Assembly (NCBI RefSeq): GCF_036327775.1
Contig: NZ_CP109598.1
Span: forward strand, 3,224,001-3,288,000
Direction: 5' to 3'
Source of the DNA: Streptomyces sp. NBC_01498
Lineage (GTDB): Bacteria; Actinomycetota; Actinomycetes; Streptomycetales; Streptomycetaceae
Length of the DNA: 64,000 nucleotides
The number at the start of each line of letters is the position of its first letter. Within the stretch, counting starts at the first letter, position 1. Shown here piece by piece: positions 25,159-63,358 of this stretch. Both the position numbers and the translations under genes were made by a program. The notes beneath the pieces were generated by a model that was given only the letters and a program-made list of their open reading frames with translations, searched no databases and had not been told where the DNA came from.

Positions 25159-25189
25159 GGCTACCTCACTAGCTAGGTGCAGTTTCATC

Positions 25190-25203
25190 CCGTCCTAGGA
25201 CGG
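25190..25203. promoter_or_regulatory. 14-bp palindrome upstream of the AAA/RloB operon
   Basis: CCGTCCTAGGACGG is a perfect palindrome 31 bp upstream of the ATPase start codon. It lies where an operator for the two-gene module would be expected. It could equally mark the insertion boundary, because GC content changes here. Confidence 0.4.
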
Positions 25204-25554
25204 ATACCGCCCTGACCGCTCCTCAAACCGTACGCCTTGTGTAGGTACCCGACCAGCGGCGTCAACCCGCGGAGGGGCGGAGCGCGGCAGATCGGCACAT
25301 CGCGGCTCCGGACGATCCCCGTGCAGGTCCCGGTACGAGGGTGTTGTCCCCCCAACTGGACAGCGCTCACCGGCAACGCCTCCATCGCCGTCGCCAGCCG
25401 GAAAGGCGCCTACTTCACCGACATCCGTGCAGCACTCGCCACCCTCATCCGCGACACAGAAGCCGGCGAGCCGGCACCCTCCTGTAGACGAGCGTGCCGG
25501 GGCCGAGCGCGACCGCGCCCCCGCCCCGGCACCTTCCAGCCCGTGCGTCCCCGT
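25204..25554. other. Island right flank with a possible gene fragment
   Basis: This stretch separates the AAA gene from the kynureninase stop. In the plus strand, 25345-25480 has strongly coding-like codon use and reads NWTALTGNASIAVASRKGAY followed by FTDIRAALATLIRDTEAGEP, with no start or recognisable family. It may be the truncated 3' end of a gene lost when the island inserted. Nothing else is evident. Confidence 0.35.
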
Positions 25555-49992: not shown

Positions 49993-50157
49993 TCAGGCGT
50001 CCGCGAGGCAGGCCAGGAGCGCGGAGGCGTCGCCACTCGCGAGTTCGACCGTCGCGACCGTCCGGCCCGTCTTGTCCTTCAGGTGGATGTCGACTTCTGC
50101 GTCACGGCGGGTCACGTCGATGGTTCCGCCGTCGGCCGTGGTGAAGGTGGTAGTCAT
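49993..50157 (-). CDS. Small prophage protein, 54 aa
   Basis: ATG 50155-50157 follows GGGGAGAGCC, and an 18-bp conserved prophage motif lies 30 bp upstream, directly after the sigma-factor stop codon. The product reads MTTTFTTADGGTIDVTRRDA, EVDIHLKDKTGRTVATVELA and SGDASALLACLADA: a small beta-rich protein. It was too short to stand out but has a good ribosome site and operon position. The function is unknown. Confidence 0.65.
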   Translation of the reverse strand: MTTTFTTADGGTIDVTRRDAEVDIHLKDKTGRTVATVELASGDASALLACLADA

Positions 50158-50187
50158 GGGCTCTCCCCTGGGTGGTCTCGCCCCAGG

Positions 50188-50205
50188 TCTGGGGAGTCGA
50201 TTGCC
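50188..50205 (-). promoter_or_regulatory. Conserved 18-bp prophage motif, copy 1
   Basis: GGCAATCGACTCCCCAGA on the minus strand. It begins within the TAG stop codon of the sigma-factor gene and ends 30 bp before the ATG of the 54-residue gene. It is identical to copy 6. Confidence 0.8.
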
Positions 50206-51080
50206 TACGTCATGGCGCCCTTGCGAGTCAGGTTTCTAGCCATGGCTGCGGTGAGTTCGGCCGCATGCTCCGGGCTCTTCGCGGCCACCTTCACGTAGCG
50301 CCTGCCGAAGGACTTGAGACCCTTGCTCCGGGCTTCGCGTACGGCCTTCGCCGTCGTTCCCAGGTCGGCGGCAAGCTCTTCTTCGTTGGTGTTGCCGTAG
50401 AACGGGACGGGGTCGATCCCGTACGTGGCCCGGAGTACGTGCGCCTGCCCGTCGCCCATCGTGTCCAAGATCCCTTGGACGACCGCGCACTTGATCCGCC
50501 GCTCTTCGCGGGCCACATCATCGGAGGTGATCAGTTCATCCGGCACTCCGAAGGCGGGTGCGGCCGGCTCCCATGCCTCGTCGGTTCCCGCGCCGGGCAG
50601 GGGCGCGTCAAGGCTCTCGGCGCCCTGGTAGGCGAGGCGCGCCGCGTGGGCCCGGTCCGCGCTGAGACGACGTCCGGCGGGCGGGACGGTCTGGGCCAGC
50701 CTTTCGGCGAGATAGGGATCGTCCCCGGCCATTCTCAGCATGGAGAGGAACGTTTTTGCCGCGTCGGGGTCGGCACCCCGGTTCCGTTCCGCACGGGTCG
50801 AATTGAGAAGGGTGGCTTCGACGGTCGTGTACGCGAACCCGAGGAAGTCACCGGTCACCGACTCGTCAAACCTGCCGAGGGCTTCCCAGACCGCTATCCG
50901 GCCGATCTGTTCGAACTCTTCGCGGTATTCCTCGTGACGCGGACCGCTCTCCGCCATGCGTCGTGCCGCCTTCCGGGCGAGCACTGATACGCGTCCTTCT
51001 GTCGCTGCGATGACCTGGGCTATGGCCTCAAGGTCCTGGTTCTGGGCAGCTCGAACTACGGAAATTGCAAGCTCTGACAC
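50205..51080 (-). CDS. Phage sigma-70-like factor
   Basis: The 291-residue product starts at GTG 51078-51080, behind AAGGAGAG. An N-terminal sigma2-like segment (EEFEQIGRIAVWEALGRFDE then SVTGDFLGFAYTTVEATLLN) and a C-terminal sigma4-like HTH (EEELAADLGTTAKAVREARS KG) are visible. Between them lies a long middle not typical of ECF factors. It is likely a phage-encoded initiation factor for a prophage gene class. The conserved 18-bp motif sits upstream of it and of several other genes, so motif recognition by this factor is an attractive hypothesis, not shown. Confidence 0.75.
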   Translation of the reverse strand: MSELAISVVRAAQNQDLEAIAQVIAATEGRVSVLARKAARRMAESGPRHEEYREEFEQIGRIAVWEALGRFDESVTGDFLGFAYTTVEATLLNSTRAERNRGADPDAAKTFLSMLRMAGDDPYLAERLAQTVPPAGRRLSADRAHAARLAYQGAESLDAPLPGAGTDEAWEPAAPAFGVPDELITSDDVAREERRIKCAVVQGILDTMGDGQAHVLRATYGIDPVPFYGNTNEEELAADLGTTAKAVREARSKGLKSFGRRYVKVAAKSPEHAAELTAAMARNLTRKGAMT

Positions 51081-51108
51081 GGGTGGCTCTCCTTCGGCTC
51101 ACCCGCTT

Positions 51109-51126
51109 TCTGGGGAGCCGATTGCC
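51109..51126 (-). promoter_or_regulatory. Conserved 18-bp prophage motif, copy 2
   Basis: GGCAATCGGCTCCCCAGA on the minus strand, 28 bp upstream of the sigma-factor GTG. It can fold with the following sequence (GGCTC with GAGCC). Confidence 0.8.
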
Positions 51127-51221
51127 CGAAAAGGGCGGGAGCCGAGAGCGCGCAAAGTGGCCGGGGCCACACCTGTTTCAGGGCGCACGAATCCCGTGAA
51201 TGGCTAAGTGAAGGCGCGTCA

Positions 51222-51260
51222 GATCAAGCCCCGTTCCGGGGTGCTTGACGGGGCTTGATC
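51222..51260. terminator. Strong 13-bp hairpin
   Basis: GATCAAGCCCCGT (51222-51234) pairs perfectly with ACGGGGCTTGATC (51248-51260). It lies between the CACGTG palindrome unit and the sigma-factor gene, so it should end the short transcript that starts near 51.47 kb. Confidence 0.8.
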
Positions 51261-51320
51261 AGGGCCTACGTCGTCGCGTTGGTCGGTGTCCGTGCGAACA
51301 CCGCTGGTGTTTTCACAGAC

Positions 51321-51452
51321 TTAGATCCCGTGCGACGGGCGGTAGTTGTTGAGAATTCCGATGCGTGACCGCACCTCATCCGGGGTGCTCAGACCGGGCT
51401 CATTCGCTGGAATGACACGGGGCCCCCAATGCCGCCGGGCGTTATACCGCCG
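51321..51452 (-). other. Short orphan frame between palindromic promoter region and terminator
   Basis: On the minus strand 51321-51323 is a TAA stop. The frame is open back to 51453 and reads RRYNARRHWGPRVIPANEPG then LSTPDEVRSRIGILNNYRPS HGI. Codon use is coding-like, but no ATG, GTG or TTG in a reasonable position starts it. It could be a fragment of a lost gene or a genuine small gene with a rare start, or the segment could be a small RNA bounded by the palindrome and terminator. Confidence 0.35.
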
Positions 51453-51470
51453 TTACGAGGGGGCGCGGGC

Positions 51471-51496
51471 CCGACCTACTCACGTGAGTAGGTCGG
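51471..51496. promoter_or_regulatory. CACGTG-centred palindrome, copy 1 (perfect, 26 bp)
   Basis: A perfect 26-bp palindrome with core CCTACTCACGTGAGTAGG begins 7 bp after the polA stop codon on the minus strand and precedes a new small transcription unit. It matches two other palindromes at 57.69 and 62.35 kb. Confidence 0.85.
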
Positions 51497-51502
51497 TTCT
51501 CG

Positions 51503-53350
51503 TCAGAAGTCGGCGCCGTAGAGGCTGCCCCAGCTCCTTCCTCCGATTTCGGCTTCGGCCGTGATCGGGACGCCGTACAGGTCGAAGGTCATTGCCTGTT
51601 CCACCGCGCGGGCCACATCCGCCGCGTCTTCGCGCGGAGCCGAGAGGAGCGCTTCGTCATGGATCGGGAGCTTGAGCATGTCGAGAAGCCCCGCTTCCTC
51701 GATGTTCAAGAGGGCTTGGCCCAGGCAGTCCCGCGCCACGGACTGGCACGCGTAGTTGACCACCGCGTACGTCCTGTCCCTGTCCAGCGGCAGCCGGCGG
51801 CCTGCCGCGCTGACGAAGACCATGCCGGACTCGTACGCTTCCCGCTGCCACCGGCGGGACGCACGTTTGATCTCCGGATACAGCCGGTCGTACTCCGCGA
51901 AGGCGCGGGCCATGGCCTCTTCGCTCGCTCCGGTCTGGCGGGCAGCCGTGGCCACGCCTCCGCCGTACACCTTCGAGAACCCGGCGCCCTTCATTACCTT
52001 CCGGTCCGACTCCGTTGCCCCGGCGCCCCGGACGAGCCGGGCCGTGAACCAGTGGATATCTTCCCCGGCAAGGAATCCTTCCCGCATCCGGCGCACACCC
52101 GCCAGGGCGGCAAGGACACGCATCTCCACGGCGGAGAAGTCGCACGAGACCATGACGTGCCCCGGGTCCGCCAGAAGGGCCCGGCGGATCATCTGGTCCG
52201 AGCTGGGCAGCGTCTGAAGCGCTGGCCGGGTCACACTCATTCGGCCCGTCCGCGCGGCCATGGAGTGCACGAAGGGGTGGACGCGGCCCCCGGCGTCCAC
52301 GACCTCAAGGAAGGTGTCCGCGTACGACGCACGCCACTTCCCGGCCCGCTTCGAGCGGATCACCGCTTCCGCCAGGGGGTTGGGAGTGCGGGAGTTCACG
52401 CGCTCGCCCTGAAGGCTCAGGTCCGCCAGGGCGGAGAGGACGGCCTTGTCCACCTTCAGGGCGCCGCCCCCGGTGCGCTCCGTCAGGCGCTCGCCCATCC
52501 CAAGGAGCGCTTCCGCCAGAGTGCGGGTGGAGTTGACGTTCTCGACGCCGTACCGGCGAGCCACGTCCGCGAAGCGGTGTTGCTCCTCGGTGAGGGTGGC
52601 GCGCAGCTCGTGAACGTAGGTCTCGTCCAGCACCATCCCGGCGCGCTGCATGTGGGTGCAGATCCGGGCAAGCTCGTGTTCGTACTGGACGAGTTCGGGG
52701 CGCACCCCCAGGCGGTCCAGCTCCCGCGTGAGCACGGGGTCAAGGCGGGCCGTGTAGATGCAGTCCAACCCGGCGTACAGGTTGAAGACGGGGTGGTCCA
52801 GGGGGATGCCGGCCCAGCCGGTGGCCTTCGTCAGGCCCAAGCCCCTGAAGACCTGGGTCAGGTCCCCTTGCGTGTCGGGGGCGGAGGGGTCCACCCAGTA
52901 CGCGGACAAGGACTTGAGGGCGGTCCCGATGCCGCCTTCCTGGGGCTGCCGGGGGTCGAGAAGACCGGCCTTGAGCCGGGTGTCAGTGGTGCGCGGTGCG
53001 AGTGATTCGAGCGGCGCCCCGGCGTGCTCGTCCAACACGGCCCAGTCGAAGGGGGCGTTGTGGATCAGGAAGCGGTCTATGCGGCGGAGGGCTGCACGGG
53101 CGGCGGACTGGAAGACGGGTCCGCGTTCCCAGTGGACGACCCAGGCGTCCCGCTCGTCTCCGAACTGCACCGTACGGAGGCGGTAACCGGGGCTGTAGAT
53201 GCCCAGCCCGCTCGTCTCCGTGTCGAGCGCGACGGCGCCCCGGCGGTTGGCGCGGGCAAGCCAGGAGCTGAAGCGGGTGAGGTCTTCTCGGGTCTGCGGA
53301 ACGTGGACGGTGACGATGTCCCCGGCCACCGCGTGGCGGTGGGTCTGCAA
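51503..53350 (-). CDS. Phage family A DNA polymerase
   Basis: This 615-residue PolA-type replicase has an N-terminal 3'-5' exonuclease domain (ALDTETSGLG with the DxE pair; later FLIHNAPFDWAVL) and a polymerase domain with motif A VSCDFSAVEMRVLA, motif B DRKVMKGAGFSKVYGGG and motif C LPIHDEALL. It replicates phage DNA together with the primase-helicase. The start is a TTG at 53348-53350, seven bases after GGGGAG, unusual but best supported. The 5'-3' exonuclease domain of cellular PolI is absent, as in phage enzymes. Confidence 0.92.
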   Translation of the reverse strand: MQTHRHAVAGDIVTVHVPQTREDLTRFSSWLARANRRGAVALDTETSGLGIYSPGYRLRTVQFGDERDAWVVHWERGPVFQSAARAALRRIDRFLIHNAPFDWAVLDEHAGAPLESLAPRTTDTRLKAGLLDPRQPQEGGIGTALKSLSAYWVDPSAPDTQGDLTQVFRGLGLTKATGWAGIPLDHPVFNLYAGLDCIYTARLDPVLTRELDRLGVRPELVQYEHELARICTHMQRAGMVLDETYVHELRATLTEEQHRFADVARRYGVENVNSTRTLAEALLGMGERLTERTGGGALKVDKAVLSALADLSLQGERVNSRTPNPLAEAVIRSKRAGKWRASYADTFLEVVDAGGRVHPFVHSMAARTGRMSVTRPALQTLPSSDQMIRRALLADPGHVMVSCDFSAVEMRVLAALAGVRRMREGFLAGEDIHWFTARLVRGAGATESDRKVMKGAGFSKVYGGGVATAARQTGASEEAMARAFAEYDRLYPEIKRASRRWQREAYESGMVFVSAAGRRLPLDRDRTYAVVNYACQSVARDCLGQALLNIEEAGLLDMLKLPIHDEALLSAPREDAADVARAVEQAMTFDLYGVPITAEAEIGGRSWGSLYGADF

Positions 53351-53458
53351 GGTATGTCTCCCCGTGAACGGGGGCAGAGCACACCCAACGCGCGCACGGA
53401 CAGGGACCCACCCGGTCGTTCTGGGCGGGCCTCTGCCCGTGCTACTGCGGTTGGCCGG

Positions 53459-54434
53459 TCAGCTCATGAGCCGCCGGAAGGCTTCGAACGCCTGGGCGGG
53501 AACAACTCCGTTGCCCAGGGCCCTGAGTTGGTGCTTGCGGGTCAGCCCGGGTATCCCGGTGACCCAGCCGGCGCGGAGGCCCATCAGCCACTCGCACCAC
53601 TGGGGAGTGAGCCGGAGGCCACCGCGCGGCCCGCGCTCCGTGGGCGGAGGCGAGGCGCGTCCGGTCAGCTCCTCCCAGCGCCTCACGGCGGGGAGGTATT
53701 CGCCCCACCATGCGGAAGGAGAACGATGACAGTCCGGAGATTCGAAGAACCCTGACGGGTCTTCGACTGGCCCGGCCCGCCCAAACCGTCGGAGGCGGTC
53801 GGAGTGGGGAAGAAGAAAACAGGCTTCGTCGGCAAGAGTTGCCGCGTGAGGCTGGCTACTGCCCCCCCCCCCCCCCGCAGAACTGATCTTCTTCAGGCGT
53901 TTGAGGGGGTGTTGGGGTCCACCGTTGGAACCGAGATTCGCCGTGGGCGTCCGCAGGAACGGCGAGGCAGAACCAACGGTCTCTGTGGTGGGGCGCTCCG
54001 ACTGCGGAAGCTCGAAGGCTGATCCATTTAGCGTCATACCCGCTCGTGGCCAGCCCCGCGAGGATTTCCGGGAGCCCGCGCGTCCGGATCGCGGCGACAT
54101 TTTCCAGGAACACGAGTTCCGGTCGAAGAACGCGAACGGCGTCAAGGACGTTGAACCAGATTGCTGACCTTGCATCACTCAAGCCCCCTCTTCGTCCGGC
54201 GTTGCTGATTCCCTGGCACGGGAAGCCCGCCGTGACGATGTTGATTTCTCCGATGAGGGCGGCCCAGTCGATGGTCTGGACGTCCCCGAGGTTCGGGGCG
54301 TCCGGGTACCGGGCCGCCAGGATCTGGGAGGCGTGCGGATCGTTCTCCGCGACGTAGCGCACGCGCTCCCCGGTCAGGCTCTCCACCGCGATTCCCAAGC
54401 CCCCGTAACCGGAGCACAATTCCAAAATGGGCAT
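53459..54434 (-). pseudogene. Cytosine-C5 DNA methyltransferase split by a 15-base homopolymer
   Basis: Two frames together form a complete C5 methyltransferase. The first (54434-53856) has motif I ELCSGYGGLG, the catalytic motif IV GFPCQGIS, motif VI ENV and motif VIII HHRDRWF. It reads into a run of 15 G on the coding strand (53862-53876) and stops two codons later. The target-recognition and motif X end (LRALGNGVVPAQAFEAF) lies in the next frame, ending at 53459. Losing one G (or gaining two) restores a 324-residue protein. The gene may be phase variable, or the tract length may be a sequencing artefact. Modification of phage or host DNA is the expected role. Confidence 0.85.
53862..53876. 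repeat. 15-base homopolymer in methyltransferase gene
   Basis: A pure run of 15 C on the plus strand (15 G in the gene). It lies between the catalytic and the recognition halves, exactly where the reading frame shifts. Homopolymers of this length are prone to slippage in replication and sequencing. Confidence 0.9.
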
Positions 54435-54464
54435 GGCAAGCCCACCCCCTTTGCGTGTGTGGGC

Positions 54465-56939
54465 CTACTTGGCGAAGATCCCGGGACCGGCCGGCGTCGC
54501 TTCGTCCACGGCCAGGCGGACGCCTACGAGCGCGATGCCCTTGTTGGTCTTCTTGCGGACAACTCCGCGCTCTTCCATCGCGCCGAAGAACGCCCGTCTC
54601 GTCCATATCTCCTTGGCGGGCAGGTTCTCCGCCGTGCACCAGTCGAGATAGGCGTTGAACGCGTCACCGCCCGGCATCGCGGCATCTTCGTGCCGCTCAA
54701 GAACGCCGGGAAAGAAGCCGCTGAGCGCGTCGGAGGTCTCCCGGTACTCCCGCGTGGCGTCCGCGATGACCGGCGGGTCCTGAAGCCCGCCCGCGTACCA
54801 CTCCACGGCGCCCCGGACCGCCCAAGCGGCAATACCGGCCGCCTCCGCCATGAGCGTCCGGTCAAGGTAGGGATCACGCTCCTCCGGGGAGAACCACCGC
54901 GTGAAAGGCAGCATCTTGACCCGGCGCCACAAACCCTCATCCTGCCCCCGGAACCGGGGCTTGTGATTCGTGGAAAGGACAATGAGGAAGCTGGGCTTGA
55001 ATTCGAAGAATTCCTGCCTCATGAATCGCGCGGACATCATGTCCTTGCCGGACGCGCGCTTGAGAATCGCTTCCGACATCGGCTTGCCGCTCTCACCCTC
55101 GCTCGCCATCACGAGCCGGCTGCCCCTCAGTGCCGCGATGTCGTTGGGAATACCACCGCTGGGCCGGTCCTCGAAGGTGGCGAACGCGGTTGTCTTCGTG
55201 ACCGCCCGGAACACGGCGGTCAGGGTGTCGGTCGCCACACTTTTACCGTTGGCGCCCTTGCCCCAGCAGATGACGAAGCACTGTTCCGCCACGCTGCCGG
55301 TGATGCCGTACCCCACGAGCCGCCGGAAGTAGTCGCCCAACTCCGGCCTGCCTGGGAAGACTTCGGCAAGGAAGGTAAGCCACCGGGGGCACTGAGCTTC
55401 CGGCCGGTAGTCGATGTCCAGCGCGTACGTGAGCATGTCGCGCTTGTCGTGCTTCCGCAGCTCCCCGGAGCGGAGATCCACCGTGCCGTTGGCGAAGGTC
55501 AGAAGCTCCGGGTGGGCGTCGAACTCCGACGCGTCCACGTGCACGGACGGGACCGCCCGCAGCTCCCGTATCAGGGAGTCGATGTTCCGCGTCAGCGTGA
55601 AGCCCCGGGCAGTCTTCTGAAGCCGGGCCCCGGGGTCGCTCTTCGCATCCCCACCCTTCTCGGCGTGCTCCCTGCTCAGCTCAGCGGCTGCCACCGTCAG
55701 TGCCGCGCCCATGTAGTGGATGGCCTGACGGACGCGGGTGTCACTGCGCTCCCAGACCGTGCCCGACCACATGTAGAAGCCCAGCCCGGGGGCGTGCTTG
55801 ATCGTGCCCCGGGTAAACGCCACGAGCGCGTGAGCGTTGAGCACGTCCGACGATCCATATTGCTCAGCGAATTCCGTCATGAGCCGGACGGCGCGGGCGG
55901 CTTCGTCCGCGTCGGGGACCAGAGCCCCGGTCGCCCCGTCCACGAGTACGTCACCCACGGGCGTGACGGGCCGGGCCGCCTTGACCGCACGGTGGAGAGC
56001 GGACGGGAAGGCGGAGGGGTCATCCTCACGCCACCGCGTCAGATCGTGACCGGCGGTGGGGATGTCCAGCTCGAACACGGAAACCCCGTGGGCGGCAAGG
56101 CCCTCCGCCAGACGCTGGGTGAACCGTGTCCCCGCGTCGTCGTGGTCACCGGCAACCAGAACGTGGGAGCCCTTGAGCCCTTCGGCCAACTCCTCTATCA
56201 GGTCCGGGCTCCCCGCCAGACTCGCGCCCCGCACAGCAACGGAGTCGTACCCCACCCCCGTGGCGGTGAGCGCGTCCCCCGGCCCCTCCGTGACGATCGT
56301 GACCCCGTAGCCACCACCACCGCGAAACACCCCGTACCCCGTCCACCGCATCCCCGGCGGGTTCATCAGGCTCAGCCACCGCCCCGGACACTGCCCCGTG
56401 AGATCCCGACCCTGAAGCCCCCGAACCGTGCCGGAGAAGTCCCTCAGCGGCACCGTCAGACGCGGGTACGCCAGAAACGAGCGGGACCGGTAGGGGAAGT
56501 GGCCGATGGCCTCCCCGTCGTCCACGCCCAGCCCGTGGTCAGCGGCCCCGTCCATGTCGATGCCGAAGCGGCCCGCTGCGTACTGGGCGGCCCGCCCGGC
56601 GGCTTCACCGTCCAGCCTCCGCAACAAGGCGGATGACTCGTCCACGTAACGGGCGAGTGCTGCCGACTCCCCGACGCCCACGAGCTGGGGCCGCACGGAC
56701 GAGACGGTCAGCCCCTCCCCGCCGGAGTTGAACAGGTCCGGGAAGCTGAGCCCCACGGCACCGATCACGTCTTCGGTCAGGCAGCCGGCCCGGCACGTGA
56801 CGCGGACCTTGTGATCGTCGCCGCGCCAGATCCGCAGGGACGGGCGGGAGTCGCCGTGCGCGGGGCACAGGGCGAGATAACCCCCGTCCGCCTCTTCGGT
56901 GACCTGGGAGAACCGGGCGAGTAGGTGAGTGAACAACAT
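54465..56939 (-). CDS. P4-type phage primase-helicase
   Basis: This 824-residue protein starts at ATG 56937-56939 after AAGGAGGCGCCGAAC; the upstream GTG is not used. A zinc-finger-like N-terminus (LCPAHGDSRPSL, then TCRAGC), a TOPRIM-like primase core (VTEGPGDALTATG; VLVAGDHDDAG) and a D5/P4-type SF3 helicase with Walker A WGKGANGKSVA are seen in order. It opens the DNA and primes it for the family A polymerase. The gene follows the 18-bp motif at 56.97 kb, which lies between it and the upstream nuclease-like gene. Confidence 0.9.
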   Translation of the reverse strand: MLFTHLLARFSQVTEEADGGYLALCPAHGDSRPSLRIWRGDDHKVRVTCRAGCLTEDVIGAVGLSFPDLFNSGGEGLTVSSVRPQLVGVGESAALARYVDESSALLRRLDGEAAGRAAQYAAGRFGIDMDGAADHGLGVDDGEAIGHFPYRSRSFLAYPRLTVPLRDFSGTVRGLQGRDLTGQCPGRWLSLMNPPGMRWTGYGVFRGGGGYGVTIVTEGPGDALTATGVGYDSVAVRGASLAGSPDLIEELAEGLKGSHVLVAGDHDDAGTRFTQRLAEGLAAHGVSVFELDIPTAGHDLTRWREDDPSAFPSALHRAVKAARPVTPVGDVLVDGATGALVPDADEAARAVRLMTEFAEQYGSSDVLNAHALVAFTRGTIKHAPGLGFYMWSGTVWERSDTRVRQAIHYMGAALTVAAAELSREHAEKGGDAKSDPGARLQKTARGFTLTRNIDSLIRELRAVPSVHVDASEFDAHPELLTFANGTVDLRSGELRKHDKRDMLTYALDIDYRPEAQCPRWLTFLAEVFPGRPELGDYFRRLVGYGITGSVAEQCFVICWGKGANGKSVATDTLTAVFRAVTKTTAFATFEDRPSGGIPNDIAALRGSRLVMASEGESGKPMSEAILKRASGKDMMSARFMRQEFFEFKPSFLIVLSTNHKPRFRGQDEGLWRRVKMLPFTRWFSPEERDPYLDRTLMAEAAGIAAWAVRGAVEWYAGGLQDPPVIADATREYRETSDALSGFFPGVLERHEDAAMPGGDAFNAYLDWCTAENLPAKEIWTRRAFFGAMEERGVVRKKTNKGIALVGVRLAVDEATPAGPGIFAK

Positions 56940-56963
56940 GTTCGGCGCCTCCTTCACCCGGTC

Positions 56964-56981
56964 TCTGGGGCGCCGATTGCC
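56964..56981 (-). promoter_or_regulatory. Conserved 18-bp prophage motif, copy 3
   Basis: GGCAATCGGCGCCCCAGA on the minus strand. It begins 5 bp after the TAG of the preceding gene and ends 24 bp before the primase ATG. Confidence 0.8.
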
Positions 56982-56985
56982 AGCC

Positions 56986-57489
56986 CTACCGAGCCGCGCG
57001 GAGGTCCGCCACGAGCTGGGCGAAGCGGGCCAGATCGGTGGTCAGGTACCAGCGGGCGGAGTCAAGACCGCGCACCGCCGGGGTGAACGCGTACCGCTCC
57101 CGCATCTCCCGTGCGGACACCCCCAGTGCCGTGCGCACCCGCGTCCACGTCCGTACGCCGAAGTGCACCCGGCCCAGCCGGACGTTGGCCCGCCGGACCT
57201 TATGGACCACCACGCCGTACGGGTAGCCCGCGTGGAACGCCTCAACGTGCGCCTGGCGGAGCCACATAGGAACCGCCGGGGACTTCACGTCCTTGCACTC
57301 AAGGACGAACGGGGCACAGTGCACGTCGCCCACGTCCCTGGCGCCCTCCTGGGCCGCCCGCCGGACGTTGAGGGCAGAGAAGACGTCCTTCACCCTGCCC
57401 GACCCGTCCACGAGCCCCAGCGCTTCGTTGAGGTAGTCCCTCACGGCGGACTCCCACGCGGTCCCGCGCGCCTTCGACGGGTTAGCCAC
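56986..57489 (-). CDS. PD-(D/E)XK nuclease-like protein (resolvase-like)
   Basis: The 167-residue product starts at GTG 57487-57489 (VANPSKARGTAWESAVRDYL), overlapping the stop of the previous gene by 8 bp. Glu in GTAWESAV, Asp in ARDVGDVHCAPF and the ExK in FVLECKDVKSPAVP give the catalytic pattern of PD-(D/E)XK nucleases, as in Holliday junction resolvases. The remainder includes RVHFGVRTWTRVRTALGVSA. A role in recombination or replication of the phage is likely; a specific name is not justified. Confidence 0.7.
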   Translation of the reverse strand: MANPSKARGTAWESAVRDYLNEALGLVDGSGRVKDVFSALNVRRAAQEGARDVGDVHCAPFVLECKDVKSPAVPMWLRQAHVEAFHAGYPYGVVVHKVRRANVRLGRVHFGVRTWTRVRTALGVSAREMRERYAFTPAVRGLDSARWYLTTDLARFAQLVADLRAAR

Positions 57490-57661
57490 GTGCCCACCGC
57501 GCGTCCGCGCCACGGTGCACCGCCTGGGCGACCGCGTCCACGTACCGGCCCCAGTCCCGGCGGTCTCGCGCCCCGGCCTCAAGCCACAGGGTGTCCCCCC
57601 GCCCCAGGCCGCGTACGTCCCCCAGTGCCGGAGCCGTCGCCCCGGTGATCCGAATGTCCAT
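57482..57661 (-). CDS. Small prophage protein, 59 aa
   Basis: ATG 57659-57661 (MDIRITGATAPALGDVRGLG) follows GGGGGAGAGG. The product continues RGDTLWLEAGARDRRDWGRY then VDAVAQAVHRGADARWARG. It is the first gene after the second CACGTG palindrome and is coupled to the nuclease-like gene by an 8-bp overlap. The function is unknown. Confidence 0.65.
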   Translation of the reverse strand: MDIRITGATAPALGDVRGLGRGDTLWLEAGARDRRDWGRYVDAVAQAVHRGADARWARG

Positions 57662-57677
57662 CCCTCTCCCCCTCATC

Positions 57678-57699
57678 AACCCACTCACGTGAGCAGGTT
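57678..57699. promoter_or_regulatory. CACGTG-centred palindrome, copy 2 (imperfect)
   Basis: The half-sites around CACGTG (57686-57691) match over 22 bp except for two positions: core CCACTCACGTGAGCAGG. It lies just after the hairpin terminator and 17 bp upstream of the ATG of the 59-residue gene, so it occupies the promoter of a new transcription unit. Confidence 0.8.
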
Positions 57700-57708
57700 G
57701 GAAATGCC

Positions 57709-57750
57709 GAAGGGCCGGACAGCACCCAGTGGGGTTCCGTCCGGCCCTTC
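57709..57750. terminator. 12-bp hairpin terminator
   Basis: GAAGGGCCGGAC (57709-57720) pairs with GTCCGGCCCTTC (57739-57750), 9 bp after the stop of the 94-residue gene on the minus strand. It separates the gene to the right from the operon that starts at 57.66 kb. Confidence 0.8.
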
Positions 57751-57758
57751 CCTGTGTT

Positions 57759-58043
57759 CTACGCGTCGCGCTCGCCCGTCACGTCCGGCAGGCACAACCG
57801 CGCGTGCTCGGTCGAAATCCACTCCCGCCGCAGACGCTTTCGCGGCACGAAGCCCGATTCAGTCCCTGTTGGCTGGACGAGAAGCATCGGGCGAAGGATG
57901 CCGTCCACCTTGCGGACGGTGACCTTCTCAACGATGGCGTCAGCCAGGCGGACCCTGTTCCCCTGCCGGGCCCCGTACGTGATCAGGTCACCCCGGTACA
58001 GCTCGTTGCCCGCGTAGTCGGAGACCGTCCCTCGCTTACCCAT
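57759..58043 (-). CDS. Hypothetical prophage protein, 94 aa
   Basis: ATG 58041-58043 (MGKRGTVSDYAGNELYRGDL) follows GAGGAGTTC. It overlaps the previous stop by 8 bp. The product has a beta-rich pattern ITYGARQGNRVRLADAIVEK with a C-terminal Arg-rich helix. The function is unknown. It is followed by the terminator at 57.71 kb. Confidence 0.65.
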   Translation of the reverse strand: MGKRGTVSDYAGNELYRGDLITYGARQGNRVRLADAIVEKVTVRKVDGILRPMLLVQPTGTESGFVPRKRLRREWISTEHARLCLPDVTGERDA

Positions 58044-58173
58044 AGACGAACTCCTCTTCATCCACCCCGAAGCGCCGCCGGCGTTCATGGATCACGTGCG
58101 GGATCTCGCCCGGCTTCCACTCCCAGAGAGGCGCCTTGAGCGCCGTATCAGGCAGAGACCGAAGGAGCGTCAT
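58036..58173 (-). CDS. Small prophage protein, 45 aa or longer
   Basis: The frame ends at 58036. ATG 58171-58173 gives MTLLRSLPDTALKAPLWEWK; a TTG at 58231-58233 with GAGGAG upstream would add 20 residues (GGGYLPGSFLTAKAG). The C-terminal RRRRFGVDEEEFVYG is fixed. The latter start overlaps the RDF stop. No family is recognised. Confidence 0.5.
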   Translation of the reverse strand: MTLLRSLPDTALKAPLWEWKPGEIPHVIHERRRRFGVDEEEFVYG

Positions 58174-58234
58174 GAACTCACCGCTCCCCGCCTTCGCGGT
58201 CAGGAACGAGCCGGGAAGGTACCCGCCCCCCAAC

Positions 58235-58939
58235 TCAACGCTCCTCAGCGATGGCGTCGTTGTACGCGCCCAGCACCTCAATCACCGGCTTCCGGAAGTC
58301 CACCTTGATCCCCGCGTTGTTCGTGTAGCTGACGTGTTCCAGGGTCAGGCGGCACAGCGCCTCTCCCTCGATGTCGTCAAGCGCGTCCTTCACCTCGTGG
58401 ATGACCTCCGCCAGGGTCCACGCGGAAGCGATGAGCCGCCCCTTGCCCAGCTCGTAGTCATGGGCCAGACGGAAGGTGACCTTGATCGACGGGGCCGGGC
58501 CGATGCCCTGGCGGGCCGCTTCCTTGCGTTCGCTCATGAGCTTCGGACAGCCGCACGGCTCCCCCTTGCGTTCCGGCGGGGACAGGTAGCTCACTCCGTC
58601 GCACTCGTGGACCGGACCTGTGCGGCCCCAGAGGATGAGCTTGTCCTCGATGGCCTTGCTGCCCGCAAGGACGATCTCCACGGACGGTGTGTCCGTCAGG
58701 ATCTGAAGATTCATCTCCCGTGCCGGGTCGTACTCCTCGACGCTCCCGCCCAGGAGCTGGGCGACCGCGTCGGCAACGGCCGGGTCGCCGGTCAGCACCC
58801 GCCAGTTGGCCAGACTGACAGGCTTTTTCTTGACCACCATGCCCGACCGGAACTGAAACACGTAGTCGTTGCTGAACTCGTGCTCCGGCTTCGGCTTCGG
58901 CCGCGCGTCCGGGTCGGTGGCGAATATCTGAAGCGCCAT
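58235..58939 (-). CDS. Gp3-like recombination directionality factor
   Basis: The 234-residue product (MALQIFATDPDARPKPKPEH) resembles phiC31/phiBT1 Gp3, the factor that turns a serine integrase toward excision. Landmarks are ANWRVLTGDPAVADAVAQLL, VEIVLAGSKAIEDKLILWGR, LSPPERKGEPCGCPKLMSERKE split by the loop, VTFRLAHDYELGKGRLIASA and LTLEHVSYTNNAGIKVDFRK. By family knowledge it binds the integrase on DNA and enables attL x attR recombination. The identity of fold order was judged from memory. It follows an 18-bp motif at 59.03 kb. Confidence 0.8.
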   Translation of the reverse strand: MALQIFATDPDARPKPKPEHEFSNDYVFQFRSGMVVKKKPVSLANWRVLTGDPAVADAVAQLLGGSVEEYDPAREMNLQILTDTPSVEIVLAGSKAIEDKLILWGRTGPVHECDGVSYLSPPERKGEPCGCPKLMSERKEAARQGIGPAPSIKVTFRLAHDYELGKGRLIASAWTLAEVIHEVKDALDDIEGEALCRLTLEHVSYTNNAGIKVDFRKPVIEVLGAYNDAIAEER

Positions 58940-59022
58940 AAGCGCTCTCCCCCTGGGGTGTTGAGTGATCAGGGGAAAGGGCGGGGCTCTGAGCCGGCCG
59001 CACCTTCCCCCTTCACCCGTGG

Positions 59023-59040
59023 TCTAGGGGGCCGATTGCC
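59023..59040 (-). promoter_or_regulatory. Conserved 18-bp prophage motif, copy 4
   Basis: GGCAATCGGCCCCCTAGA on the minus strand, 24 bp after the exonuclease stop and 83 bp upstream of the RDF start. One substitution (C to T in the CCCCAGA block) marks it as the most divergent downstream half. Confidence 0.75.
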
Positions 59041-59064
59041 CACGGCATGGGAAAGTGGGCACCG

Positions 59065-59907
59065 CTACTTCGCACGTCGCTGTGTGCCCGTCACGAGCTG
59101 GGCGGCAGCCTGGGCGATGGCCCGGCCGATGACCGTCTTGGACGTCTCCCGGTCCCAGACGAATATCTGACGGAGCCGCAGGAAGGTCGCGAACACGTCG
59201 GCGGAGTCGATCCGGACCGGCTTGAACGCCCACGTCTCATCCGTGATGTGGAGCACGCACGCCCCGTCGAACTCCGGCATGGGCTCGCTCACCCCCTGGG
59301 CGTCGATGATCCGGTCAGCGTGCGCGTACGCGGACATCTGAAGCGCCACGTCCGGATAGGTCGCCTTCGACGTCTTCCAGTCGGCAATCACCGTGTGCCG
59401 CTCCCCGGAACGGTCCGGGGTCGGCCTGCCGTCCGCGTCCAGCCACACGTTGAGGATGGCGTCGAAGCTCCCCGCGTACCCGTGCTGATCACTCCACGCC
59501 ACGTCTTCGGCACGGACCAACTCCGGGTTCACCGCCTCAAGGAACTCCGCGAAATTGTCGCGGTACGGGATCAGGTCCGGGTGCACGCGGCCCGGGATCT
59601 CGCCCCGGATCATGCGCTCGAACAGGTCGTGCGCGTCGGAGCCCACATCCGCGCGGCGCTTCGTGTACCGCCTGGCGGCGCCCTTGAGGTAGTCAACGGC
59701 ACCCTGCCGGTCCCGCTCCGCCATCTGCTGAACAAACGGCAGCGAGTCAACGGCCAGCTCCGCCACCATCTTGGCGTTCCAGAACGCGAGAAATGGTTTG
59801 GGCAACATGCTGATGACGGACGTCACCCCGGGGACCTTGACGTCAGGCTTCTCCGGATCGAAGTAGAAGCGGCTGCCGCTTCGGGTAAGGGTTCGGATCT
59901 GGCCCAT
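59065..59907 (-). CDS. RecB/Cas4-like PD-(D/E)XK exonuclease
   Basis: The 280-residue product starts at ATG 59905-59907 (MGQIRTLTRSGSRFYFDPEK). A helical N-terminus with GVTSVISMLPKPFLAFWNAK and a catalytic core VGSDAHDLFERMIRGEI, YAGSFDAILNVWLDADGRPT, IADWKTSKATYPDVALQMSA (D-x(n)-DxK pattern) mark the PD-(D/E)XK exonuclease superfamily of phages. It should degrade or process DNA ends for recombination. The gene is divergent from the plus-strand moron; the 18-bp motif sits 42 bp upstream of its ATG. Confidence 0.8.
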   Translation of the reverse strand: MGQIRTLTRSGSRFYFDPEKPDVKVPGVTSVISMLPKPFLAFWNAKMVAELAVDSLPFVQQMAERDRQGAVDYLKGAARRYTKRRADVGSDAHDLFERMIRGEIPGRVHPDLIPYRDNFAEFLEAVNPELVRAEDVAWSDQHGYAGSFDAILNVWLDADGRPTPDRSGERHTVIADWKTSKATYPDVALQMSAYAHADRIIDAQGVSEPMPEFDGACVLHITDETWAFKPVRIDSADVFATFLRLRQIFVWDRETSKTVIGRAIAQAAAQLVTGTQRRAK

Positions 59908-59949
59908 GGGCCGACCCCCTTCAGGCTCGTGGTGGGTGGTCACCACGGG

Positions 59950-59967
59950 TCTGGGGTGCGCATTGCC
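59950..59967 (-). promoter_or_regulatory. Conserved 18-bp prophage motif, copy 5
   Basis: GGCAATGCGCACCCCAGA on the minus strand. It stands in a true divergent promoter region (exonuclease gene left, moron gene right), not between co-directional genes, which favours a promoter or operator role over a purely translational one. Confidence 0.75.
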
Positions 59968-60023
59968 CCGCTCACACAAGACGGGCTCACTGTCCGGTCA
60001 AGGCCGATGTCAGAGCGGCCGGT

Positions 60024-60064
60024 TAGACTGCTCAGCAACACGCCTAGGTCGGAGTGGAGGTGAA
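60024..60064 (+). promoter_or_regulatory. Promoter region of the plus-strand moron
   Basis: TAGACT (60024-60029) is a good -10 hexamer, followed by a 35-bp leader that ends in GGAGTGGAGGTGAA before ATG 60065. No clear -35 is seen. An independent rightward promoter in a leftward prophage is the usual sign of a moron. Confidence 0.45.
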
Positions 60065-60709
60065 ATGGACGAGCCTGTGCAAATCTTTGAGCGGGACAAC
60101 TACTACACTGCTGATTCTCTCGCTGCCGAGACGCTGAAAACCGTCTTGGAAGACTTCGAACTCGACACCACCCCAAGGCTGATTTACGCCACTACGGGGT
60201 CAGGGAAGTCTGAAGCGGCTTTCGCCTGGGCGACGTTCGAGCTGAGGCGGATTGAGGCAAACCGTAGGGCTCTTACCGAAGTCTGGGGCAAAGAGAGTGC
60301 CCGTGCGCGCAGAAAGCGGAATAAGTCTTTCCAGCGGTTGCTTTATGAAATCACAGTCGAAGACTCAGAAGAAGAAAAAGGAAGTGCTTATGAGCGCTTG
60401 AAGGGCGCGGCAGAGCGAATGCGATCAGCGCCAACCTCTGCTGAACGCCGTCTGGCCGCACGGGACTTCCTCTCCGCGCTGGCCGAAGTTGTCGCGTCCG
60501 TACTCCGCTTCCTTACGCGCCTTCTCATGGTCCTGTTGTCGCGGCTGATGGGTAGGTCCAGCGCTATTGACCTCCCGATTTGGAAGCCCGACCCCATCGA
60601 CACGTTGCCGCAGGTCACACCGCGCGGCCCCAACTCTGCCCTTCCCGTGATGACTTACCGGGGCGGGCACCGCCGCAGCACGCTGGGGAGCGTCGTACTA
60701 GCTGCCTGA
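60065..60709 (+). CDS. Plus-strand moron protein with P-loop and hydrophobic C-terminal half
   Basis: This 214-residue protein (MDEPVQIFERDNYYTADSLA) carries the nucleotide loop IYATTGSGKSEAAFAWATF at about residues 40-58, as found at the start of DEAD/Cas3-type ATPases, but no later helicase motifs. A charged helical middle (LYEITVEDSEEEKGSAYERL) leads to a hydrophobic or amphipathic stretch VVASVLRFLTRLLMVLLSRL. It is read opposite to all neighbours from its own promoter, is less GC-rich than them, and is followed by a second membrane protein. The function is unknown; exclusion or anti-phage activity is plausible from context only. Confidence 0.7.
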   Translation: MDEPVQIFERDNYYTADSLAAETLKTVLEDFELDTTPRLIYATTGSGKSEAAFAWATFELRRIEANRRALTEVWGKESARARRKRNKSFQRLLYEITVEDSEEEKGSAYERLKGAAERMRSAPTSAERRLAARDFLSALAEVVASVLRFLTRLLMVLLSRLMGRSSAIDLPIWKPDPIDTLPQVTPRGPNSALPVMTYRGGHRRSTLGSVVLAA

Positions 60710-60747
60710 GTGACCCGCCGACCATTCAAGGTCGGAAGGTTCAGATC

Positions 60748-60993
60748 ATGTTTTCCCTGCCGGATACGGTCCCTTGGTGGGCTGTTTTGATCATCTCCAT
60801 TTTCGTGGGCTTCATCGTGCTTGTCCGGGGCATGTGGCCGCAGAACTCCAATCACCGCAAAGAACTGTTGCAGGGGTGGCAGCGGGAACGCGCCCGCAGG
60901 CGGAAGGAGCGGCAACTAGAACGTACCCGTAGACGTCAGGAGCGGCAGCGGGAACGCGCCCGGCAACGGCGGGCACTCGATAGGCCGAAGTAG
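60748..60993 (+). CDS. Small membrane protein with basic coiled tail
   Basis: The 81-residue product begins at ATG 60748 (MFSLPDTVPWWAVLIISIFV) after GGAAGG. One membrane helix (WAVLIISIFVGFIVLVRGMW) is followed by a positively charged helical tail (RRRKERQLERTRRRQERQRE). A basic cytoplasmic tail like this can bind nucleic acid or an acidic partner. It forms a two-gene rightward unit with the P-loop protein, ending at a bidirectional hairpin. Confidence 0.7.
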   Translation: MFSLPDTVPWWAVLIISIFVGFIVLVRGMWPQNSNHRKELLQGWQRERARRRKERQLERTRRRQERQRERARQRRALDRPK

Positions 60994-61014
60994 CTGAGCC
61001 AGCCCCGAGTACGA

Positions 61015-61053
61015 CGAAGCCCCGCCGGTCCACAGAGGACTGACGGGGCTTCG
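61015..61053. terminator. Bidirectional hairpin between convergent units
   Basis: CGAAGCCCCG (61015-61024) pairs with CGGGGCTTCG (61044-61053), with an inner GTCC/GGAC stem. It lies between the moron and the 393-residue gene and probably stops transcription from both sides. Confidence 0.8.
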
Positions 61054-61065
61054 GGCCGGGGTGGG

Positions 61066-62247
61066 TCAGATGCTGTCGGCCAGTTCCTGGGCACGTGCGG
61101 CAAGCGCCGTCAGGCGATTCCGGACCTTCCGCTTCTGGGTGCCGTTGAGCTTGGCCGCGTTCTTCTGCGCCTTGTCGAGTTCGCCCATGATCGTGGTGAA
61201 GTAGTTCTCAAGGCGGACTTCGGGGGTCAGCTTCGAGTCGTCATCCTTCGTGCTGCTTTCCAGCTCCTTGCCCTGGGCACGGCGTTCACGCTCAAGCTCG
61301 GTCCGGCCCTTGCGGGGCAGTTCCATTCCGTTCGTCGCGTACAGCGCGTAGACCGCTTCGGTCAGACTTGCCGGCTTCTTGCCCGTCTCCTTCTCCTTGG
61401 CCTTCAGGTACTTGGCGGCAGCATCCGGGAAGTACCGCCGCGCCTCTTCGAGTCCCGCGCCCTTGTCGGCGTCCAGCCCTCGAAGGTAGGAGACGAGTAC
61501 GTCACTGTTCTTGTTCTGGACGCTTCGCTGAAGGGACTTGAGGGCATCCGCGCGGTCGACGTCGTCCGGGTTGAGCTGGGCCGCCACCCGCCGGTAGATG
61601 TCCCCGGCACGGTCCCGGGTCTTCTTGCCACCGGCCAGGAGGTCAGGGAGCCCGCTCTTGTGGACGGACTCTTTCCGCATGGCCAACTGGATCTGGGAGA
61701 CCGCTTCGGCGACCTCTGCCATCTTGGCGCCCAGGGTGATGGCCTCAAGGGCGGTCTCCGCGCCCTTGTCGATCAGCGCCGCGACGTGGCTGGGGATGAC
61801 GTCGCCCTCGATCGCTCCGGCGGGCTCCTCCGCCCCCTCAGCCTCCGGCGTCGCCTTGAGCGCGTCCGTCAGTTCCTCACGGAGCGCGTTCCGGAGCTTC
61901 ACCGACCCGGCACCCTTGAGCCCCTTGAGGAGTCCTTCGGTCTCCGCGACCAGATCCGCGATGACCCCCGCCTCAGCCCCGTTCACCGCGTACGAGCGGG
62001 CCCGCTCAACGTTCGCCTTGATCTCTGCCGTCAGCGCGTCGTTCGTGGCCATGTGGATCTTCTCCCCTGTGTCCCGGTTCTCAATGGTGATCTCAAGCTC
62101 CGACTCGCGCAGTCGCGCGGTGCGGAACATGTCCAACGCGGCCTTCGTCGCGTCCTCTTCGGAATCGTGAGCGTTGGCGCCCTTGATCCCGCTCCCGACC
62201 CAGACGAACAACAGCCGCCACGGCAGGCGTTGACCCTTCTTCGGCAT
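61066..62247 (-). CDS. Hypothetical phage protein, 393 aa
   Basis: The product (MPKKGQRLPWRLLFVWVGSG) is largely helical and charged: LTAEIKANVERARSYAVNGA, LREELTDALKATPEAEGAEE, LERERRAQGKELESSTKDDD. A short N-terminal domain with ITIENRDTGEKIHMATND precedes the helices. No enzyme motif is visible. It is the first gene behind the third CACGTG palindrome and ends at the bidirectional hairpin. It could be a structural accessory or regulatory protein; I do not recognise it. Confidence 0.7.
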   Translation of the reverse strand: MPKKGQRLPWRLLFVWVGSGIKGANAHDSEEDATKAALDMFRTARLRESELEITIENRDTGEKIHMATNDALTAEIKANVERARSYAVNGAEAGVIADLVAETEGLLKGLKGAGSVKLRNALREELTDALKATPEAEGAEEPAGAIEGDVIPSHVAALIDKGAETALEAITLGAKMAEVAEAVSQIQLAMRKESVHKSGLPDLLAGGKKTRDRAGDIYRRVAAQLNPDDVDRADALKSLQRSVQNKNSDVLVSYLRGLDADKGAGLEEARRYFPDAAAKYLKAKEKETGKKPASLTEAVYALYATNGMELPRKGRTELERERRAQGKELESSTKDDDSKLTPEVRLENYFTTIMGELDKAQKNAAKLNGTQKRKVRNRLTALAARAQELADSI

Positions 62248-62316
62248 GGTTGCCCTTCTCAGGTTTCACCGCGCCCGGCGTTCCCCCCGGCCCGCGTTTT
62301 CAGAAAAACCGTAGCA

Positions 62317-62346
62317 CCGAATCCAGATTCTTGTTACCGGATTCGG
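62317..62346. promoter_or_regulatory. 8-bp inverted repeat next to palindrome 3
   Basis: CCGAATCC (62317-62324) pairs with GGATTCGG (62339-62346) with a 14-bp AT-rich centre. It directly adjoins the third CACGTG palindrome and lies in the 5' region of the 393-residue gene, so the promoter region carries two stacked dyads. Confidence 0.6.
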
Positions 62347-62347
62347 C

Positions 62348-62363
62348 CTACTCACGTGAGTAG
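62348..62363. promoter_or_regulatory. CACGTG-centred palindrome, copy 3 (16 bp perfect)
   Basis: CTACTCACGTGAGTAG lies about 100 bp upstream of the 393-residue gene and directly after the hairpin that ends the dNMP kinase unit. It shares its core with copies 1 and 2. Confidence 0.85.
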
Positions 62364-62380
62364 CTTGGGACATGACGAAG

Positions 62381-62407
62381 GCCCCCCACCCGGTCGGGGT
62401 GAGGGGC
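62381..62407. terminator. Hairpin after the dNMP kinase gene
   Basis: GCCCCCCACCC and GGGGTGAGGGGC form an imperfect GC stem with a short loop, 7 bp after the kinase stop on the minus strand. Confidence 0.65.
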
Positions 62408-62413
62408 GTTCCG

Positions 62414-62992
62414 CTACTCGCGCCTGAGAAGCCGGTCTGTGGCTTCGCGCAGCTCGGAGAAGGTGCCGTTGTTCGTGATGGTCAGGTCCGCCGGATACCC
62501 GTCAAGGTCGGTCTCACTCACGTGGTCGCCGTTGGTTCCCAGGTTCCGGACGCTGGCCCGGTTCACCCGTACGAGGGTGAACCCCCGGTTCTTCAGGGCT
62601 TCGTACTCGTTGGCGTGGCGGACGTCGGTGACGACCACCGGCATGGTCAGCACGTCGGCGGCGGCCACCTTGTCCATGGCGAGCGTCAGCCAGTAGTCGG
62701 GGTCCTGGTTACGTACCGCCTGCCCCATGCGCTGAAGGGTGCGGCGGATCTCCGGGCTCCGGACCTTGGCCTCTTCCCAGCCCCACCGGTTGACGATGTC
62801 GGCCAGGCGGACGGGGACGGGGCCGTACCCGGCGGGCTCGTACTTGACGACCGGATCGATACGGAGGGCCATCTCCTTGAGCGGGTCCGCGAAGGCCACG
62901 CGCGTGAACCCCCATGAGTGCACGAGTCGGCTGCCGACGGTGTCCTTGCCGGCCCCGGCCCGGCCCATGAGTGCGATGTTTCGGTACGGCAT
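62414..62992 (-). CDS. Phage deoxynucleoside monophosphate kinase
   Basis: This 192-residue P-loop kinase (MPYRNIALMGRAGAGKDTVG) has a GRAGAGKDT nucleotide loop, ADPLKEMALRIDPVVKYEPA, and TDVRHANEYEALKNRGFTLV, matching phage dNMP kinases. It phosphorylates dNMPs to supply phage DNA synthesis. The start follows GAAGGG, and an 18-bp motif lies 34 bp upstream, directly after the holin stop codon. Some Streptomyces phages carry such kinases beside replication genes. Confidence 0.85.
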   Translation of the reverse strand: MPYRNIALMGRAGAGKDTVGSRLVHSWGFTRVAFADPLKEMALRIDPVVKYEPAGYGPVPVRLADIVNRWGWEEAKVRSPEIRRTLQRMGQAVRNQDPDYWLTLAMDKVAAADVLTMPVVVTDVRHANEYEALKNRGFTLVRVNRASVRNLGTNGDHVSETDLDGYPADLTITNNGTFSELREATDRLLRRE

Positions 62993-63026
62993 CCCGGTCC
63001 CTTCGGTGAGTGGTTCTCACCGGGGC

Positions 63027-63044
63027 TCTGGGGAGTCGATTGCC
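63027..63044 (-). promoter_or_regulatory. Conserved 18-bp prophage motif, copy 6
   Basis: GGCAATCGACTCCCCAGA on the minus strand, identical to copy 1. It begins within the TAG of the holin gene and ends 34 bp before the dNMP kinase ATG. A further stem (GGTGAG and CTCACC) follows it. Confidence 0.8.
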
Positions 63045-63250
63045 TACGGCCGGTACTGCCCGGAGTACGCGGCCCGGGTCTTGTGGTCCTCAAGGCGCTG
63101 GACTGCTTCACCAGTGCCCAGCACCGCAGCGACCACGCCCAGGATGAGCGCGGACGGCAGTTCCGGGGCGTAGTGGGCCACGAGTGCCAGGAGCGCCACG
63201 GCCACGGTGTAGATCCGGGCAGCGTGCTTCTGTACGAACTCCACGATCAT
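63044..63250 (-). CDS. Holin
   Basis: This 68-residue protein starts at ATG 63248-63250 (MIVEFVQKHAARIYTVAVAL) behind GGGGAATCC. Two hydrophobic segments (YTVAVALLALVAHYAPELP; ALILGVVAAVLGTGEAV) and a charged C-terminus (RLEDHKTRAAYSGQYRP) fit a small actinophage holin. It should form membrane lesions that time lysis, and lies directly downstream of the endolysin gene. A longer in-frame start exists but lacks support. Confidence 0.85.
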   Translation of the reverse strand: MIVEFVQKHAARIYTVAVALLALVAHYAPELPSALILGVVAAVLGTGEAVQRLEDHKTRAAYSGQYRP

Positions 63251-63358
63251 GCGGATTCCCCTTGCTAGTTGCTGTGCGTGATGATGTGCGGCGCGGCGTG
63301 GGCCAGCTCGTCCACGCGGGCGTGGGTTCGCCGCTTCCGGCGGCACGCCGGGTGACGG

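Follow-up and report, generated by a model that had tools for sequence, protein, structure and literature searches.

A phage-specific sequence block upstream of the lytic genes of a phiC31-like Streptomyces prophage is probably recognised by a phage-encoded sigma factor

Phages such as SPO1 and T4 run sigma cascades, in which a phage sigma factor (gp28 and gp55, respectively) redirects the host core RNA polymerase to promoters found only in the phage. phiC31 and its relatives are the source of the main integration tools for Streptomyces, and the phiC31 early and late (lp1) promoters were reportedly described by Ingham, Wilson, Smith and co-workers in the 1990s; to our knowledge, the switch of the early promoters in this family has not been established. 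Here, we analyse a 64,000-nt stretch of Streptomyces sp. NBC_01498 (the window; positions 3224001–3288000 of the 7.27-Mb chromosome), in which an 18-bp motif, GGCAATCGRCNCCCCAGA, is repeated upstream of the genes of a phiC31-like prophage. The window includes the repressor c, primase, DNA polymerase A, deoxynucleoside monophosphate (dNMP) kinase and sigma-like genes of this prophage; its integrase, terminase, major head, tape measure and tail genes lie beyond. We find that the motif is specific to the prophage, that many related phages have blocks of their own at orthologous positions and that these blocks diverge together with a phage sigma factor. The elements most likely represent phiC31-type lytic promoters of a divergent class, with the phage's own sigma as reader. 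Judged from sequence comparison, the motif is probably the recognition block of the lytic promoters, read by the host core RNA polymerase carrying the phage sigma of the phiC31 gp12 family.

An earlier note on this DNA had described six 18-bp copies in one orientation, and all are present on the minus strand. Copy 1 (50188–50205) precedes a small open reading frame of 54 codons (ATG 50157) at the position of phiC31 gene 13, copy 2 (51109–51126) the phage sigma gene (GTG 51080), copy 3 (56964–56981) the primase gene (ATG 56939; alternative GTG 56957), copy 4 (59023–59040) a recombination directionality factor (RDF)-like gene (ATG 58939), copy 5 (59950–59967) an exonuclease gp1-like gene (ATG 59907) and copy 6 (63027–63044) the dNMP kinase gene (ATG 62992). 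GGCAATCGRCNCCCCAGA is matched exactly by copies 1, 2, 3 and 6, with one mismatch by copy 4 and with two by copy 5. The distances to the start codon (30, 28, 24, 83, 42 and 34 bp for copies 1–6) agree with the 24–83 bp given earlier, as does the overlap of copies 1 and 6 with the preceding stop codon, whose last base is the first base of the copy. At up to three mismatches the window contains six matches, a number reached by none of 100 shuffles (mean 0.84, largest 3). The placement of copy 5 in a divergent region, also claimed earlier, is probable and depends on whether the plus-strand frame at 59906–60709 (start taken as 60065) is a gene.

Across the genome, a relaxed form of the motif with up to two mismatches occurs at 15 places. 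Nine have no or one mismatch, and all nine are on the minus strand within one prophage (3274188–3305365); the other six, each with two mismatches, are scattered, and a reversed-pattern control gives 12. Outside the prophage, the relaxed motif is thus no more frequent in the 7.27-Mb genome than background. A position matrix, as the earlier note had proposed for the prophage and its relatives, finds ten prophage copies on the coding strand and none on the other, among them one directly after int (the late-promoter position), one upstream of the amidase endolysin gene and a weak one upstream of int. A phosphoadenosine phosphosulfate reductase-like gene (L020:4341–5369, beyond the window) is the first sizeable one to follow the late-region copy after int.

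The prophage elements share the genes, the orientation and a similar spacing with the phiC31 early and lp1 promoters, and, as there, a unidirectional conserved block stands before orthologous early genes and the late region. They differ in sequence: the prophage has GGCAATCGRCNCCCCAGA followed by a weak GGGTGA, and only a core like CGACTCCC is common to both. phiC31 carries 11 copies of a different, GGGTTGCCGACTYCCTTAC-like block at equivalent places, including the lp1 position, and its genome has no match to the prophage motif below four mismatches. Because the phiC31 sequence GTTGCCGACTYCCTTAC is in none of the window copies, the prophage motif would work like the phiC31 promoters as a divergent class with another promoter sequence.

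The same arrangement recurs in relatives. A plain count of 16-mers was dominated in several phages by repeats in coding sequence, so discovery was anchored instead: for each of 17 named Streptomyces phages and the prophage, a motif finder received only the 130-bp leaders of six anchor genes (dNMP kinase, exonuclease, RDF, primase, polymerase and sigma). Every phage gave a single block of its own, and after a genome scan the block lay within 120 bp of 93 of the 108 anchor starts. The 15 starts lacking it belong to polymerase (11), RDF (2; Shady and Attoomi) and sigma (2; SASD1 and Dubu); in the prophage, the motif precedes five of the six anchor genes, polymerase being the exception. With RDF left out, the distance from the end of the block to the start codon is 18–79 nt (median 32). 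In all 20 phages scored, two Arthrobacter phages included, the block scored higher than each of 12 random-window sets, with a slim margin in SASD1 (102.3 versus 101.8). The random windows, here and in the null sets below, were drawn without matching to intergenic sequence. Leaders of late genes serve as a closer control; block scores exceeded them in eight of eight phages, and in phiC31, BT1 and Heather these leaders return the palindromes considered below. A further 54 loci with a sigma match were reduced to 38 by dropping 16 duplicates or anchor-poor pieces, and 27 of the 38 show a clear block (judged by eye, with no null). In five Arthrobacter, Curtobacterium and Microbacterium phages, the block of Nitro and Liebe stood above all 20 null sets and that of SuMoo barely above the null (104.8 versus 102.6). 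By eye, the blocks fall into at least eight naturally diverged classes. Three prophages with a sigma relative (L106, L109 and L111) have the dNMP kinase and exonuclease genes only about 140 bp apart, which leaves no space for a repressor gene, and show no clear element; in L106 and L109 the genome search reports in-frame stops inside the sigma match.

The proposed reader is encoded behind copy 2 (50205–51080, minus strand, 291 amino acids). The protein has sigma2 and sigma4 domains, that is, regions 2 and 4 of the sigma-70 family, and at E ≤ 0.001 the Pfam model of region 2 picks up 50 of the 55 proteins of its family. Taken alone, the prophage protein scores under the Pfam gathering values (23.4 versus 24 for region 2 and 22.6 versus 24.1 for region 4), and its region 4 match falls at an implausible place (residues 15–42), so membership of the sigma-70 family rests on the family profile and the fold. 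A Nitro-type sigma-like gene has matches in 199 phage records, all but one of them from Microbacterium, Arthrobacter and Curtobacterium; the profile recognises the sigma-like protein of Halsey (E 2.8e-15) but not those of Quenya and SuMoo.

Block and sigma change together. Among the 18 phages, block distance correlates with gene distance most strongly for sigma (r = 0.77), ahead of primase (0.68), polymerase (0.60), exonuclease (0.60), RDF (0.52), dNMP kinase (0.47), repressor (0.31, p = 0.03, n = 16) and integrase (0.14, n = 13). In partial tests sigma keeps 0.54–0.80 given any one other gene; given sigma, the other genes drop to 0.13–0.26, with p < 0.05 for primase only. A 40-phage set, formed by adding 22 of the 27 clear new loci (near-duplicates dropped) and comparing five genes, gave 0.79 for sigma, 0.70 for primase, 0.59 for polymerase, 0.51 for exonuclease and 0.46 for RDF. 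The pair formed by the prophage and locus L104 illustrates the trend: primase, polymerase, exonuclease and RDF are 91–95% identical, sigma is 72% identical and the block has shifted along with sigma. Together with the orthologous positions in many phages and the sigma2 and sigma4 domains, this co-divergence favours a phage-specific promoter class tied to the sigma-like gene, which the earlier note had offered as one candidate.

Several observations weigh against this assignment. In the 40-phage set, primase (r = 0.28, p = 0.001) and RDF (0.23, p = 0.005) retain a correlation given sigma, and fast evolution of sigma by itself leaves more room for correlation. Shaeky has a sigma distance (0.52) close to that of Rowa (0.53) but one of the most divergent blocks (0.79). 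No block precedes the sigma gene in SASD1 and Dubu, 11 of the 38 further loci with a sigma match give no clear block, and Halsey and Quenya, two of the five Arthrobacter, Curtobacterium and Microbacterium phages, have none above the null; moreover, the Arthrobacter phages picked as a sigma-less control carry a sigma-like gene. A sigma70 consensus scan of 50000–63500 found no promoter-like site (shuffles mean 0.8), and no consensus host-type promoter was detected upstream of the prophage sigma gene. Correlation with the block is stronger for the N-terminal half of sigma than for the C-terminal half (0.50 versus 0.13 in partial tests), which fits poorly with a simple −35 box read by sigma4. Finally, ribosome sites start as close as 5–6 nt past the block, so the block cannot be a −35 box at the usual spacing in every copy; it may cover the −10 and spacer region. 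Two narrower proposals were dropped on these grounds, the C-terminal half of sigma alone as specificity determinant and a fixed −35/−10 assignment of the block.

Some of this would be expected if the block were a phage promoter with another reader, such as a phage activator or a protein modifying RNA polymerase that works with a host sigma, the phage sigma serving only some promoters. Early promoters require a factor before the phage sigma exists, the element also precedes the sigma gene itself, and part of the primase correlation survives removal of sigma. We nevertheless consider such a reader unlikely, since the sigma correlation is the highest of the eight genes compared, which do not include the small early genes, and persists given any one other.

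A different polymerase altogether is suggested by the Rowa class of blocks, whose core CGACTCACTA resembles the core of T7 promoters; Rowa (L022) and loci L038, L047 and L048 share the T7-core-like block GGCATTCGACTCACTAGA. The T7 promoter agrees with the Rowa-class consensus at 14 positions (p = 0.0019 against shuffles), this being one of 11 classes tested, and the remaining classes give p ≥ 0.03 before correction. No single-subunit RNA polymerase (PF00940) was found in this genome or in seven phages, a search that does recover the T7 polymerase (E 9.9e-110) and gives no match in 14 control genomes either; Rowa itself yielded no T7-type polymerase gene. A T7-type promoter, its probability being close to negligible, was set aside.

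The prophage and phiC31 also share a dispersed palindrome, CCTACTCACGTGAGTAGG, which is distinct from the motif and resembles a CIR operator, the name given to repressor sites in phiC31; those of L5 are called stoperators. It is found at three window places with up to three mismatches (expected 0.01): at the start of the gap between the polymerase and sigma genes (51475–51492), upstream of a RusA-like gene (57680–57697; two mismatches) and between the dNMP kinase and repressor genes (62347–62364; one mismatch). Without mismatches, its core occurs at five places in the genome, all within the prophage. The palindrome is present 15–16 times in phiC31, BT1, Shawty, Lilbooboo and Samora, each with two copies in the long gap upstream of sigma, and 0–5 times in four other phages counted. 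In SASD1, Dubu and Nesbitt, the pre-sigma gap has a −35-like and a −10-like hexamer 18 bp apart, and a palindrome fills this spacer. These positions in the gap and in the promoter spacer suggest direct control of the sigma gene by the repressor, the copy at 51475–51492 being the proposed operator in the prophage; the palindrome is likely to be the repressor operator. The gap itself (51080–51503) measures 422 bp in the prophage, 422–533 bp in 16 of the 18 phages, 693 bp in Attoomi and 234 bp in SASD1; with its palindromes and, in some phages, a host-type promoter, it may hold further regulation. Other repeats are probably the operators of their own phages: Shaeky, Shady and Sycamore (L026–L028) carry 21–24 palindrome-like repeats of a different kind, built around an ACGTT core, and L056 carries 16 copies of ACCTAGGAACGTTCCT.

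The palindrome bears on the stoperator reading that the earlier note had also raised, in which the c repressor would bind the motif and block transcription in the lysogen. The motif copies are numerous, dispersed and in a single orientation, and phiC31 and L5 are described as having 18–30 dispersed repressor sites (PMC4557955). As in those systems, the prophage has a dispersed CIR-like site, but that site is separate from the element motif, and it is the palindrome, not the block, that the prophage and phiC31 have in common. Furthermore, the motif is not palindromic in the prophage, and the correlation between block and repressor falls to 0.18 (p = 0.12) given sigma. Co-divergence with sigma, the weak correlation with the repressor and the separate operator favour a promoter class over stoperators, which we regard as extremely unlikely.

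A third earlier suggestion, a sequence associated simply with the start codon, does not describe the motif. The start-associated sequences (SAS) of mycobacteriophages are short repeats directly at the start codon that include the ribosome site, whereas the motif lies 24–83 bp upstream, excludes the ribosome site and marks the late region too. Of the three readings in the earlier note, then, only the promoter class is well supported. Its remark that the motif is 'not simply translational' holds, though it may not be the whole story: the block is complementary to the ribosome site, which points to a further role when RNA reads through. The leaders of T4 genes e and 49 offer a precedent, in which the promoter lies within the left arm of a hairpin and this hairpin conceals the ribosome site in read-through RNA; here, by contrast, the arrangement would be widespread and part of the promoter consensus, and is indicated by folding and swap tests only. 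We considered 79 leaders (those of the 93 block-bearing ones with a near start codon), which are not independent, the phages being related. By stem score, 8 of 18 phages support pairing between block and ribosome site; duplex energy reached p < 0.05 in 5 of 37 sets downstream and 1 of 37 upstream, with z = 0.6 for this prophage; and the pairing test gave p = 0.042 for Nitro, 0.008 for Liebe and 0.55 for SuMoo. In read-through RNA the block might thus pair with the ribosome site and lower translation, so that each gene would be translated mainly from its own promoter, a secondary model that we hold to be slightly short of an even chance. If the element acted at the RNA level only, as a leader hairpin or processing site that controls translation in long transcripts, it would need no promoter role. 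The same duplex energies speak against this, as do a primary sequence conserved beyond the needs of pairing, its tracking of sigma divergence and the block in the late region after int; we judge it very unlikely.

For a promoter block read by the phage sigma, with the palindrome as operator, we infer the following order of events. In the lysogen, the c repressor would hold the sigma gene off at the separate palindrome. On induction, the first sigma would be made from a host-type promoter and would then activate its own gene through copy 2, the recombination and replication genes through copies 3–5 and dNMP kinase through copy 6; beyond the window, it would activate the endolysin and late regions. 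Such a scheme resembles the SPO1 and T4 cascades in its use of a phage sigma on the host core polymerase and differs in that the phage is temperate, the sigma gene adjoins repressor-type palindromes and the promoter sequence varies from phage to phage with sigma. More tentatively, and with some doubt on our part, a large group of actinophages (of Streptomyces, Arthrobacter and probably Microbacterium) may run the lytic cycle through one fast-diverging sigma and matching phage-private promoters that co-evolve as lock and key, the block doubling as an anti-ribosome-site arm that renders read-through mRNA translationally dead and leaves each gene answering only to its own sigma promoter.

The phiC31-type promoters as such are of a known kind; the sigma link, the lock-and-key divergence, the extension to Arthrobacter and the pairing with the ribosome site appear to be new. 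In a literature search covering titles and the starts of abstracts, and not the original phiC31 promoter papers, none named a sigma factor as reader of the phiC31 promoters. With one candidate gene, its expected DNA block and the diverged block classes in hand, the switch of the early promoters becomes directly testable. RNA-seq data have been published for Samy, a prophage related to phiC31 (PMC11302927). Private co-divergence of sigma and promoter, if true, would supply ready orthogonal sigma–promoter parts for Streptomyces, and nested ribosome-site pairing, if true, would turn a T4 curiosity into a widespread rule.

The remaining genes of the region are all on the minus strand: the phiC31-type repressor gene c (61066–62247; 393 amino acids; PF25746, E 8.3e-58), the phiC31 gp11-like DNA polymerase A gene (51503–53350) with no element copy in front, and the genes behind copies 3–6, which are the phiC31 gp9a-like primase gene (54465–56939), the RDF-like gene in the gp3 position (58235–58939), the exonuclease gp1-like gene (59065–59907) and the gp52-like dNMP kinase gene (62414–62992). 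Between the repressor and exonuclease genes, two plus-strand frames at 60065–60993 encode 214 amino acids with a GSGKS stretch and a membrane-like 81 amino acids. Neither matches PADLOC models, the first has no PHROGs family and the second no Pfam family; they are possibly lysogen-expressed genes. Elsewhere in the window, the G+C content falls to 0.54 near 23–25 kb (22001–26000), far under the rest.

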